Source: a virus. Taken from it: a stretch of 39,749 bases of DNA. Every line of letters begins with the position of its first letter. Within the stretch, counting starts at the first letter, position 1. Shown one piece after another: positions 4,121-25,766 of the stretch. A program made the position numbers and the translations under genes. The notes under the pieces are model-generated. The model saw only the letters and a list, made by a program, of their open reading frames with translations. It was not told the origin of the DNA and searched no databases. Where the stretch lies: positions 1-39,749 of IMG/VR virus record IMGVR_UViG_3300023083_000004. One strand, 5' to 3'.

Positions 4121-6306
4121 TGCTGTTCTTCTTCTGCTGAGACACGCGATGGCAACAGAAGCCGCTCAAGTTGCTGCGTCACGGGCGAGTTAGAGCCTAG
4201 GACGTTGCGGGTCGTAGTGAGGTATTCCCGCACAGCGCGGGGAGGCCCTCGACCCTGACGACGCGCCATCTCTGCAACCTGTACGATGCGCTCCAGATCA
4301 TCCGCAGACCCGATGCCGAGTTGTACGATAGCGCCGCGCTCTTCGGGAGACAGGGTAGCGCGTGCGCGGATGCGGTCGATGGTGCGCCCAATGGCGACAA
4401 GGTTTCCGGTAAGGGCCTGACCGCCATCAACCGCAGCGCCGACCATCCCCGCCGCCGTTTGTGTTTCATCGTCAAGAGTGCGCCCGAAGGTTTGGCTGTT
4501 CGTGTTTGGCGAAACACGAGCCGCGCGCTGAGCCTGGCGCACGCCTTCCTGAATGCGTCCGATGTATTGTTCCGCCTCTTGAGGACCGAGCAGCGCTGCA
4601 AGGTTTTCACGCGAGTAAGGAGCCTCTGCTACCGCCTGTAGTGCGCCAGTTCCTGCCTCTCTCTGGCCCCCCAGAGCGTCCATGATCCGCTGACGAACGC
4701 CGATCACCATCGCTTCACGCTGCGTAGGCGTCATGTTCTGAACGCGTTGCGCGAAATCAGCCGGGTTCGTGTTGAACACGCTCGCGGCGTCGTCCAGATT
4801 GTCCAGAGCGCCCGAAAGGTCAGCATAGGTAGCGCGGGCCGGTGCGATCTCTGGAACGTTGGACAGGGCGGTGTCGATGTCGTCGGCGCGCGAGAACAGG
4901 CCTCCGGCAATGTCGCGCGATCCGGGGCGCTGGTTCAGGTCACGACCACGTCCCGCCATGGCGATTCGCACACGATCAAGCGTCCCTGCCGTAACTTCGG
5001 TAGTCGAGCCGTTCAGCAGGCCGTCGATCTCTGCGACCTGTTCGTCATTACGACGTGCTACAGCAGCAGACCTTGCGCGCCGCAAGGCAGCACGACCCGG
5101 CTCGTCGCCAATGGCGCTCAAAATGTCCTCGGAGACCGGAACGCGTGTTGCATAAGCGGGCGCATATTGCGTTCCTGCAAGATTGCTGCGCACATCCGTC
5201 AGACCCTCACGAACACCTTCAAGCGACCGTGGATCACGAGACAGCCCGCGAGTTACGTCCATGATCTCAGGCTTCAGGTTGGCAGTACGCGCCACGCTGT
5301 TCTGAACAGCCAGATCAGCACCGGGGCCAGCAGGCCCAGCGGCATTACGAATCAGCCGTTCCCCCTGATTCCCGAAGGTGTCCAGAACAGAAGGCTGAAG
5401 GCCCAACGCCTGAAGACGCGCGCGTTCCGCGAAGTTCTCCGGTCCAATAACGCCCTCAAGCCGCGTCGCTGCACCGACAGCAGGACCCATGCGACGCGTA
5501 GCAGCTCGCGCCGCGCCACCCGGATTTACAGCAGCCCCAGCAATCCCCGCAAGACGCTGTGCATAGGGCGCAACGACCTGTGCGCCACCCTGGATCACGC
5601 CGCCGGTTACGCCCCCTACAGCCGCACCCAGGGCCGCAGAGGGAAGCCTATCCGCAAAGCTCCCGGTCGCGCTGTTCAGCCCCGACGCTGCGCCATAGGC
5701 GAGGCCGGTACCTACAGCGCCAGCGACGCCCGCTCCGACCGTAGCGCCGCCCGTAAGAGCCCCACCAGCCAGCGTTAGTCCACCAGCCTGCCATGGATGC
5801 TCCTGTGCGAAATCACCCGTCGTCTGACGGTACGCCTGCACGGTCGCGTCGTTCAAGTCAGACGAGTTGATCTCAATCGGCAGACCTTGCAGGCGGCGGC
5901 CAAGGTTCGTCGCCATTTGACCGCCTTGCGCCAGACGCCCGTAAACCTCATCTGCACCACCTAGCAGCAGACCGTTCATCAGCGTGCTTTCGCGTGCTGC
6001 GGTGTCTCCGTTCGCGCCCAGACGGCGTTCGGCTTCAGAAGCGGCCAGCCGTTGTGAGTCGGTTAGAATGGGATCGGCTTCCCATGGCGGTGCAGCGCCG
6101 CCGGAAGGATCGGGCACATTGGCGACGGTCCGCGCATACGATCCCGTAGCGGGGTCCAGCGTGTATCCCGCCTGAGCCAGTTGCTCCGGCGTTTCGTTGG
6201 TGTAGCTTTCCGCCACCACGCCATACCGTGTGCCATCTGGACGAACCTGAACAGCACGCGGGTTACGCTGACGGACAACGGGGTCTGATTCCCAAGGATC
6301 AGCCAT
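4117..6306 (-). CDS. Internal virion / DNA-ejection protein (gp16 position)
   Basis: This is a 729-residue protein. After an N-terminal 'PWESDPV' repeat region ('PWEADPI' recurs near residue 73), a glycine/alanine-rich segment at about 175-240 ('AGGALTGGATVGAGVAGAVG') could insert in or cross a membrane. The C-terminal half is helical and Arg/Gln/Glu-rich. In P22-type phages the gene before the tailspike encodes gp16, the largest ejection protein, which enters the cell with the DNA. Order, size and the amphipathic glycine-rich segment fit that role; I see no enzyme motif. It overlaps the previous gene by one base (TAATG) and its stop is coupled to the next frame. Confidence 0.7.
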   Translation of the reverse strand: MADPWESDPVVRQRNPRAVQVRPDGTRYGVVAESYTNETPEQLAQAGYTLDPATGSYARTVANVPDPSGGAAPPWEADPILTDSQRLAASEAERRLGANGDTAARESTLMNGLLLGGADEVYGRLAQGGQMATNLGRRLQGLPIEINSSDLNDATVQAYRQTTGDFAQEHPWQAGGLTLAGGALTGGATVGAGVAGAVGTGLAYGAASGLNSATGSFADRLPSAALGAAVGGVTGGVIQGGAQVVAPYAQRLAGIAGAAVNPGGAARAATRRMGPAVGAATRLEGVIGPENFAERARLQALGLQPSVLDTFGNQGERLIRNAAGPAGPGADLAVQNSVARTANLKPEIMDVTRGLSRDPRSLEGVREGLTDVRSNLAGTQYAPAYATRVPVSEDILSAIGDEPGRAALRRARSAAVARRNDEQVAEIDGLLNGSTTEVTAGTLDRVRIAMAGRGRDLNQRPGSRDIAGGLFSRADDIDTALSNVPEIAPARATYADLSGALDNLDDAASVFNTNPADFAQRVQNMTPTQREAMVIGVRQRIMDALGGQREAGTGALQAVAEAPYSRENLAALLGPQEAEQYIGRIQEGVRQAQRAARVSPNTNSQTFGRTLDDETQTAAGMVGAAVDGGQALTGNLVAIGRTIDRIRARATLSPEERGAIVQLGIGSADDLERIVQVAEMARRQGRGPPRAVREYLTTTRNVLGSNSPVTQQLERLLLPSRVSAEEEQQ

Positions 6307-22672: not shown

Positions 22673-22701
22673 ATTATCCACGGAAGGGGAGGGGTTGGCA
22701 A
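22673..22701 (-). promoter_or_regulatory. Candidate late promoter
   Basis: On the minus strand TTGCCA (22701-22696) and GATAAT (22678-22673) are spaced by exactly 17 bases and lie immediately before the first gene of the packaging and structural operon. One copy of the repeated motif TGCGCCAC (22721-22728) sits just upstream of the -35 box, where activators usually bind. Confidence 0.5.
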
Positions 22702-22720: not shown

Positions 22721-22904
22721 TGCGCCACTTCGGCGGCTTAGGTGGAGCGCCAGACTTTAGGCTTGCGCCACCCTGATTTACCCCGACGACGGCTCCGCCT
22801 AGCGGGGTACAGGTGGCGCAACCAAAAGTCAAGCCCCCACCGCCGGTCCTGACTGAGGTGGTTTTGCGCCACCTTTGCGCCACCTTAAAACACAGGGTGG
22901 CGCA
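22721..22904. repeat. Cluster of TGCGCCACC motifs with nested palindromes (origin or activator-site candidate)
   Basis: The 9-mer TGCGCCACC or its complement occurs at 22764-22772, 22812-22820 (inverted), 22865-22873, 22876-22884 and 22896-22904 (inverted). An 8-of-9 copy lies at 22721, and another is inside the adjacent primase gene at 23024. Two direct copies are 11 bases apart. Arms at 22763-22772 and 22812-22821 form a 10-bp palindrome enclosing a second 7-bp palindrome (TACCCCG/CGGGGTA, 22779-22785/22803-22809). Copies 22876 and 22896 form a 9-bp hairpin with an 11-base loop. The 242-base region carries no convincing gene. Confidence 0.75.
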
Positions 22905-22906
22905 CA

Positions 22907-24967
22907 TCAGAACGGCGTGTCGTCGTCATCGACAGGAGTAGATGACAGCGGGGTTTCAGAGAGAGGGCAGGCAACATGCTGGCGCTGTTTTCTTTGGTGA
23001 TCGGGCCTGATCTCGATAACGAGTGCGCCACTCTTGACCCACGTATTGATGGCGATCTTAAGCGTATTTTTTCCTTTTTCGTCCACAGAATCTATTCCCA
23101 TCAGACGCCCAACCAGATGCCCGAACCAGTCTGGAGACTGCGTATCATACCTGGTGTGAGCAGGATTATCGTATGCAGCCCGCTGAGCGATCATCACCGC
23201 GTTGTGGGGCAGTGCGTCAAGGACAGCGGCTTTCTCGGGAAGTTTGTAGTGAGCGACGACACCGACACGGTCGGACTCTCCTGGCGGGCCGTTCTTGAGG
23301 TCCACGTCCATAAGCTGACGCCATTTCCCTTCGCCTGACCGGCGGGTCATGTTTGCCTTGCCGCTGGTGACCGAGAAGTATGAGAAGCGGTCCTCAAGGG
23401 CCATGCCGTCGATTTCCTTGGCGATATCCTCTGGCATTACATTAAGCACGCGGGCCGATCTAACCCCCCCGATAAGAGCCGATGCACCACGGGCGTCGTT
23501 AACGTCTGTCTGGTCCTTGTTTCCTCCAGACGGCTTCCTGACGTGGTGGACGATCTCCACGGCGCAGTTGGCTCGCTCGGCCAGTTTCCCGAGGCGCTTG
23601 ATAACCGCATCAATGGCGTTGTTATCGTTCTCCCCCATCCGGTGCGCAGACACGAATGGGTCGAGAATGAAAACGTCGATCCTGCGGGCGATGATTTCTG
23701 CTTCCAGCTCATCGAATAGGGTTTCATCCAAGGTGATTTCGCCACGCACGATCTGACCGAGGGTGATGGTTTGTTCGCGTCCGGTGTCAGTGAAGAGCCG
23801 TCCGCCGACGTGATCCGGCGTCAGTCCGTGGTGCATGGCGGCTGCGATGACGCGACGTTGGGTTTCGTCCTGTGGGTCCTCTCCGTTCCAGTACCAAACA
23901 CGGAGAGGCTCAGGGACGCGGACTTTGTCATCCTTGAGGAGGGATTGACCAGACGCCATGCACAGCGCCTCCATCATCACCAGAGATGATTTACCGATGC
24001 CGCCAGGTGAAACGGTTACAGACACGAACCGGCGGATCAGGTGGTCACCGTACAGCCACGCGCGGGGGGCGATGTTAAGTGGATCGACCCACTGAAAAGG
24101 CGTGGCATGAACAGCGGTAGAGACGGGCTCCATAACTCCGGTTTCGTCGGAGTTATGCGACGCGGCGCTGATCAGGTCGTCAATCGTCCTGCCTTCACGC
24201 GCTAGCCAGTCGTCGGCACCGGCTTTTTCGGGTTGATCCGGGAGCCAGATTACTTCTGCGTGAGGAATCGTCCTGGCAACGCGTTCGGCCCATTTATGGC
24301 CTGTCGGGTCATTGTCTGGGTACGCACGAACTTTCTGTCCGTCAAACCAGACGCCAAAATCACCTGAGACTGGAAAGTTTGTTCCGCCGCCTGGAGCGGT
24401 CGTTGCCAGCAGACCCTTAGAACGGAGGTAGTCGGCTGATTTTTCCCCCTCAACCAGATGGATAGTCTGGTCCGCATTGGCCAGGATTTCAGGCAGGCGG
24501 TACGGAACAACCGAACCGGAAGGCTTACCCGGCTCAAAGCTGTCCAGGCCGTTCCAATGATACTGTTTGAAACTCTTGTCGGAATAGCGAGTGACACGGA
24601 GGTAAGGCTCCCCGTCACGGTCCTGATATTCGTAGTGACACACAACGGTCGGCTTGACCTTTGGCTTGGGCGCAAGGGAAACGCCCGCCTCTGATGCCAG
24701 CCTGTCAACCGCCTCTGTGAACGTGAGGTTTTCGGTTTCTGTGAGGAAGTCGATAGCGTCACCATGCTTTCCGCTGCTGAAGCAATGATAAAAGCCCTTT
24801 TCGTCGCTGACGGTGAACGACGGCGTTTTTTCCTTTGTGAAAGGAGAAAGGCCGACGTGTTCTTTCCCGCTCCGCTGGAGCTTAACCGTGCGTCCGATAA
24901 ATTCGGACAGCCTGATTTTCTGTTTGATCTCTGTGAGGATAGATTCCTCGATCAGGCCGCCGGTCAT
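22907..24967 (-). CDS. Primase-helicase (DnaG-type N-terminus, TOPRIM, RepA-like ATPase)
   Basis: This 686-residue replication protein has three domains. Residues 36-75 correspond to the CHC2 zinc domain of DnaG, but the ligands are mostly lost: 'SPFTKEKTPSF' replaces CPFH and 'YHCFSSGKHGD' keeps only one Cys. Residues about 168-225 form a TOPRIM-like domain ('LVEGEKSADY', 'YPDNDPTG'). Residues about 300-560 form a RecA-fold helicase with Walker A 'PGGIGKSS' (321-328) and Walker B 'DVFILDP'. The C-terminus is acidic ('DDDDTPF'), like SSB-type tails. It should prime and unwind DNA for the host polymerase. It overlaps the Cro-like gene by ATGA. Confidence 0.85.
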   Translation of the reverse strand: MTGGLIEESILTEIKQKIRLSEFIGRTVKLQRSGKEHVGLSPFTKEKTPSFTVSDEKGFYHCFSSGKHGDAIDFLTETENLTFTEAVDRLASEAGVSLAPKPKVKPTVVCHYEYQDRDGEPYLRVTRYSDKSFKQYHWNGLDSFEPGKPSGSVVPYRLPEILANADQTIHLVEGEKSADYLRSKGLLATTAPGGGTNFPVSGDFGVWFDGQKVRAYPDNDPTGHKWAERVARTIPHAEVIWLPDQPEKAGADDWLAREGRTIDDLISAASHNSDETGVMEPVSTAVHATPFQWVDPLNIAPRAWLYGDHLIRRFVSVTVSPGGIGKSSLVMMEALCMASGQSLLKDDKVRVPEPLRVWYWNGEDPQDETQRRVIAAAMHHGLTPDHVGGRLFTDTGREQTITLGQIVRGEITLDETLFDELEAEIIARRIDVFILDPFVSAHRMGENDNNAIDAVIKRLGKLAERANCAVEIVHHVRKPSGGNKDQTDVNDARGASALIGGVRSARVLNVMPEDIAKEIDGMALEDRFSYFSVTSGKANMTRRSGEGKWRQLMDVDLKNGPPGESDRVGVVAHYKLPEKAAVLDALPHNAVMIAQRAAYDNPAHTRYDTQSPDWFGHLVGRLMGIDSVDEKGKNTLKIAINTWVKSGALVIEIRPDHQRKQRQHVACPLSETPLSSTPVDDDDTPF

Positions 24968-25226: not shown

Positions 25227-25766
25227 ATGAAGCGGCCAAAGTTTACGCAAGGCATTTACCTCATCGCCAATTGGGGTGAGCGCAAATGTTATGTCGGCTC
25301 GTCGGTCAGAATGGAAATCAGACTTAGCGGGCATCGCTCATCTTTGATGAGGGGAAAACACCACTCTAAAAGGTTGCAGGAGGACTGGGATCGCTTGGGG
25401 GCAAAAGCCTTCCAATTCATTCACTGGGAGCAAGTCAGCGATCTTTCCGAATTATCTGCAAGGGAGCGGTTCTGGATCGAAAGATTTGAGGGGCAAAAAC
25501 ACTACAACAGCGGCGTCCCTGGAGATCGAGTTTATATAACCCCCCTTCAGATAACCGGAATAAAAACAGCTAAGGGATGGATTAGGCGAGGAGATCGTAT
25601 TCGCCTTAAGCGAAAGGAAGAAACGGTAAAGGAAATTTATCTGCACCGGTCGCCTTTTTCTTGCGGGAAATTTGGTGCGTCATTTTGGTGTTCACGAGCA
25701 CACATGGGCGGAAACCTGAAACGGTTTTTGGAGCAGCCGGGAAAATATTACGAGGTAACTATATGA
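25227..25766 (+). CDS. GIY-YIG endonuclease (free-standing homing-type)
   Basis: The 179-residue product has an N-terminal GIY-YIG domain: 'GIYLIANWGERKCYVGSS' gives GIY (9-11) and YVG (22-24), with Arg28, His36 and the catalytic-type Glu80 ('ARERFWIERF'), then Asn94. The C-terminal part (about 100-179) is basic and probably binds DNA. The gene is clearly richer in A/T than its neighbours, a sign of recent arrival, as expected for a mobile homing endonuclease. It has a perfect AAGGAGGT ribosome site and its stop overlaps the exonuclease ATG, so it now leads the recombination operon. Confidence 0.8.
   Translation: MKRPKFTQGIYLIANWGERKCYVGSSVRMEIRLSGHRSSLMRGKHHSKRLQEDWDRLGAKAFQFIHWEQVSDLSELSARERFWIERFEGQKHYNSGVPGDRVYITPLQITGIKTAKGWIRRGDRIRLKRKEETVKEIYLHRSPFSCGKFGASFWCSRAHMGGNLKRFLEQPGKYYEVTI

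Follow-up and report, generated by a model that had tools for sequence, protein, structure and literature searches.

What is the function of a cluster of short repeated sites packed between the end of a primase gene and a promoter-like sequence in a viral genome? The question is raised by IMG/VR record IMGVR_UViG_3300023083_000004, which was analysed along its whole stretch of 39,749 nucleotides (the window in what follows). The cluster comprises five exact copies of the 9-mer GGTGGCGCA and one near-exact copy, and the initial annotation was accurate as to their positions in both orientations, the spacings of 11 (22865/22876) and 20 (22876/22896) between neighbours, and the presence of a 59-base nested palindrome. 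The elements of the locus are the following:

22896..22904, plus strand as GGTGGCGCA, minus strand as TGCGCCACC: iteron 1, exact site
22876..22884, minus strand as GGTGGCGCA, plus strand as TGCGCCACC: iteron 2, exact site
22865..22873, minus strand as GGTGGCGCA, plus strand as TGCGCCACC: iteron 3, exact site, 11 bp from iteron 2
22812..22820, plus strand as GGTGGCGCA, minus strand as TGCGCCACC: iteron 4, one arm of the central palindrome
22764..22772, minus strand as GGTGGCGCA, plus strand as TGCGCCACC: iteron 5, opposite arm of the central palindrome
22721..22729, minus strand as AGTGGCGCA (TGCGCCACT read at 22721): iteron 6, one mismatch
22753..22830, no strand: nested central palindrome, GACTTT / iteron / TACCCCG ... 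CGGGGTA / iteron / AAAGTC
about 22673..22701, minus strand: sigma-70-like late-operon promoter TTGCCA-N17-GATAAT, read from the sequence and lying outside the array

The array lies between the end of the primase-helicase gene (22907), whose stop codon it follows after 2 bp, and the promoter-like element on the minus strand. The enrichment on which the initial annotation had staked its reading is borne out, with five exact copies in the array and a single further one, at 5581, in the rest of the window; when the window was simulated 100 times with a second-order Markov model, no 9-mer of whatever sequence reached more than 3 occurrences within 184 bp, against the 5 observed. The position that is mismatched in iteron 6 is perfect in a relative (L008). 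The 59-base palindrome (22763-22821) has the form TTGCGCCACC ... TACCCCG ... CGGGGTA ... GGTGGCGCAA, and its outer arms, GACTTT and AAAGTC, extend this core out to 22753-22830. When the 184 bases are folded as single-stranded DNA, they reach z = -6.1, a value equalled by none of 200 shuffles. Strong palindromes directly after a stop codon could also belong to a structured RNA or a transcription terminator ending the primase transcript, but the hairpin is not followed by a run of T, and an RNA hairpin leaves both the direct repeats and the sites that change together (see below) unexplained, so that this explanation is given hardly any weight.

A megablast search against named phages gave no match, and the comparison was made with more than 150 loci of this helicase family collected from viral and genome contigs, whose named hosts are nearly all alphaproteobacterial. 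Three of them (L002, L003 and L008) carry the motif of the window at the same place. Nine others (L005, L007, L009, L010, L011, L012, L014, L018 and L024) keep the place and the layout with a different motif, uniform within each locus, namely AGGTGAGGAA, ACTGGCGCA, AGGTGGGGAA, ACTGACGAC, ACTGGTGCA (in two loci), ACTGGAGCA, AGGTGGAGCA and ACCGTGGCA. The absence of the array from homologous phages, which the initial annotation had named as a refutation, is not observed, since the place is kept, although the motif itself changes from phage to phage. In a de novo word search, in which the word was found without a template and its reading frame set by the best fit to one, arrays were recovered in 94 loci with the consensus [GA][GC]TG-N-N-GCA, and in close and distant relatives alike they lie 3' of the helicase gene. 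The commonest layout consists of one site and, after about 11 bp, two or three sites in the opposite orientation about 10-11 bp apart, a facing pair around a palindrome, and then at least one further site. A facing pair is present in 69 of 78 arrays and an inner inverted repeat in 49, and the palindrome core CCYTWWRGG, for which mononucleotide shuffles predict 1.1 loci, is found in 37 of 79. The rule does not extend to the whole family, since no array is detectable 3' of the gene in a large subfamily with the C-terminus FVRAV or FVRAA, whose origin may lie elsewhere. Members of this subfamily (L160, L161, L173, L184 and similar loci) come from Rhizobiales and combine the same helicase with a different, DPISRK-like wing.

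The same comparison bears on the possibility that the array is an operator, whose sites, bound by the winged helix of the helicase or by some other phage regulator, would control the late-operon promoter. The nearest upstream site ends about 20 bp short of the -35 box, and the terminase and portal genes lie downstream in the window. However, what follows the array varies from one relative to another (terminase, endonucleases, integrase, invertase, SSB and others), whereas the helicase gene ahead of it is constant. A late-gene activator is a weak idea for this reason, and the suggestion in the initial annotation of activator sites is not supported as the main function, the array trailing the helicase gene whatever gene comes after. 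As the covariation described below also points to the helicase and not to a regulator, regulation of the late promoter is considered an unlikely purpose of the sites. The replication origin proposed as the other possibility is, on the other hand, strongly supported, its position being kept in relatives.

The gene that precedes the array, and the parts of it that are relevant here, are these:

22907..24967, minus strand: primase-helicase-initiator gene, 686 aa (Pfam, PHROGs, fold, AlphaFold)
22970..23200, minus strand: C-terminal winged helix, residues ~590-666, predicted iteron reader (models, PDB neighbours, covariation)
23138..23140, minus strand: codon of Q610, which covaries with motif bases 0-1 (GG or AC)
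22988..22996, minus strand: codons of the wing-tip residues Q658-R659-K660, which covary with motif bases 5 and 7

According to Pfam and PHROGs, the protein comprises a DnaG-type zinc ribbon (residues 7-98), a toprim-like middle part and a RepA/AAA_25 helicase (288-480), and RSF1010 RepA (1g8y/1nlf) is both the best sequence relative in the PDB and the best fold match of the helicase. The AlphaFold model of residues 281-686, built on a 68-sequence alignment (pLDDT 93.7), places a winged helix after the helicase, at the C-terminus, with the wing loop at residues 656-660 and residues 658-660 at its tip. Modelled alone, this domain reaches a pLDDT of 91.5 (91-94 across models) and resembles many winged helices in the PDB; Pfam holds no family for it. 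Since a structure search with the winged helix by itself returned only general winged-helix neighbours (lowest Foldseek E 0.04; VIA-align Z of 8.1 for SAMD1 WH-DNA), no specific structural relative is claimed, and the absence of the origin-binding domain of P4 alpha among the matches listed has no bearing either way. The C-terminus of the primase-helicase (22910-22933, minus strand) is an SSB-like acidic tip, DDDDTPF, and the SSB of the phage itself (27076-27471) ends in DDIPF. Eleven distinct members of the family end in PF, all of them close relatives of the window phage (DDDLPF, DDSPF, DDCPF, NDLPF and others). Possibly the helicase tip mimics the tail of SSB and in this way recruits host proteins that bind SSB.

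Which protein reads the sites? An answer is suggested by comparing each motif base, numbered from 0, for covariation with the alignment columns of both the helicase and its winged helix, in a set of 79 non-redundant loci (less than 90% identical). The FVRAV subfamily and L004, L072, L081, L084, L086, L088, L089, L091, L097, L148 and L153, which fitted the template poorly or had too few sites, were left out of this set. Bases 0 and 1 are linked to residue 610 (z 16-27), where Q goes with GG in 56-58 of 59 cases and R or K with AC in 15 of 15. The central base, base 5, is linked to residue 660 (z 13-15) and to residue 658 (z 7-10), and base 7 to residue 659 (z 11-13), R being found with C and G or S with A. 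These columns rank at the top of 318-333 alignment columns, the maximum z in 200 shuffles being 5.4-8.2; among 333 columns they come first, with z 13-20. For base 4 no column offers a good explanation. On a tree restricted to the helicase domain, base 1 changed about 13 times and residue 610 about 12 times, and of the 6 supported independent pairs for this residue an average of 5.9 agree, with no disagreement; for G at base 5 with N, M, E or D at 660, 9.7 of 12 supported pairs agree and none are opposite. In a pairwise nearest-neighbour scan, 610 and 659 were confirmed, whereas 660 did not stand out for base 5. Near-twin loci whose iterons are not the same have different wings: L016 and L021, with 95% shared helicase domain, have iterons GGTGGGGCA and GGTGGAGCA and wings KRM and RRR, respectively, and L158 and L177 (90%) have iterons GGTGTGGCA and GGTGAGGAA and wings KRN and KSN.

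The same rules were applied to 24 loci previously unused, in nine of which clear arrays are present. Residue 610 predicts base 1 in eight of the nine (the exception being L287) and residue 660 predicts base 5 in eight of the nine (the exception being L221), and all eight loci having R659 show C at base 7. From this covariation it can be inferred that the winged helix of the primase-helicase contacts the motif bases, and covariation and predicted structure together support this C-terminal domain as the putative reader of the iterons. The binders put forward at first (a separate winged-helix protein, GcrA or a DnaA-like protein) are not those indicated by the covariation, which singles out the primase-helicase itself. 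More generally, a separate phage or host DNA-binding protein with a role in regulation, partition or packaging might bind the array, the helicase gene being simply linked to it, and other small regulator-like genes do occur in the window; yet single motif bases track single winged-helix residues over many changes, on the tree and out of sample, which a third-party binder would not produce, and such a binder is accordingly very improbable.

The array is thus very probably the replication origin of the phage, bound by the C-terminal winged helix of its own helicase-initiator, since a winged helix carried on a replicative helicase is the arrangement of an initiator. The gene together with the array is also present on four complete circular plasmids, namely Methylobacterium pVL1_6, Microvirga pR24_3, a plasmid of Microvirga lotononidis and a Rhodoplanes phage-plasmid. 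Of these, pVL1_6 is 31.5 kb long and carries toprim along with a RepA-type gene. In the available gene tables, which are incomplete, three of the four have no other annotated initiator, and the M. lotononidis plasmid also has RepB/RepC. L293, a Rhodoplanes serenus plasmid, contains 15 exact iteron 8-mers, eight of them in the 3' array and the rest elsewhere on the plasmid. GC skew is flat at the array, without a switch at 22.8 kb.

In the mechanism that we propose, the initiator would combine a primase, a hexameric helicase of the RSF1010 RepA type and the C-terminal winged helix in a single chain, and the winged helix would bind the 9-bp sites (GGTGGCGCA), in which the identity of bases 0 and 1 would be determined by residue 610, and that of the middle base and of the C in GCA by the wing tip (658-660). 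Several copies, bound to inverted and direct sites, would gather the helicase around the central GC-rich palindrome, at which the strands would be opened or a hairpin extruded; the helicase would then be loaded and the primase would begin synthesis. The central palindrome is accordingly a predicted opening or priming element, its role in opening or as a priming hairpin being a guess modelled on the ssi sites of RSF1010 and on pRN1.

A more general, tentative proposal, to which we give somewhat less than an even chance, is that a residue-level recognition code operates across this large family of initiators from phages and plasmids of alphaproteobacteria, such that the origin sequence could be predicted from three spots in the winged helix, and those spots from the origin. 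That the iterons change rapidly and in concert would then reflect selection for exclusive origins, as a means of evading rival phages, satellites or nucleases that target origins. A GIY-YIG-type homing endonuclease-like ORF lies near the primase gene (25227-25766, plus strand), and an origin-directed nuclease of this sort is conceivable as a partner of the origin. If the origin reading is true, it places the origin of widespread and experimentally little-studied phages and phage-plasmids, with initiator and site as a matched pair, and shows replication parts of the RSF1010 style combined within one chain. The roughly 40 natural versions of the iteron, with their matching winged helices, would make a change of initiator specificity without loss of function directly testable.

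Our literature search, whose coverage was incomplete, found no paper describing the origin of this helicase family, and the locus is best understood by comparison with other systems. In the Rep of SaPI and the Cch2 of SCCmec, a C-terminal domain binds iterons directly 3' of the protein's own gene (PMC7581432). The likeness lies in a self-contained helicase with a C-terminal domain for short repeats at this place, and in the window as in the 94 loci an array lies immediately 3' of the gene for the initiator helicase. Their helicases, however, are of the SaPIbov1 (DUF927) or D5 type, whereas the protein of the window matches Pfam AAA_25 and RSF1010 RepA instead of DUF927 or D5/Primase_C. In P4 alpha a winged helix binds the origin repeats (PMC4234260), and primase (of the DnaG/toprim type), helicase and winged helix are likewise joined in one chain; the helicase of P4 is of the SF3 type, in contrast to the AAA_25/RepA helicase of the window phage. 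Unlike the P4 ori, the array adjoins its gene, and the window shows no counterpart of P4 crr as a second cis region, having one cluster of sites and the single outside copy mentioned above. In pRN1 an essential stem-loop lies 3' of the gene for a winged-helix primase-helicase (PMC4234260).

The RSF1010 (IncQ) oriV also contains repeats and hairpins (PMC4234260) and is served by a RepA-type RecA-fold hexameric helicase core like that of the window. There, three proteins share the tasks, RepC binding the repeats, RepA being the helicase and RepB' the primase, whereas in the window phage binding and helicase are on one chain, to which the primase also belongs in its group; winged helix and primase are parts of the helicase chain and not separate proteins like RepC and RepB'. 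Concerted change of an initiator's DNA-binding domain and its iterons has been described for the RepA_N of V. cholerae PLE (PMC8263062) and for geminivirus Rep (PMC12548392); the window family resembles both in this respect, although the proteins and their chemistry are unrelated. On the best reading, the array would act in the manner of the SaPI Rep and P4 alpha origins, with a helicase of the RSF1010 RepA type.
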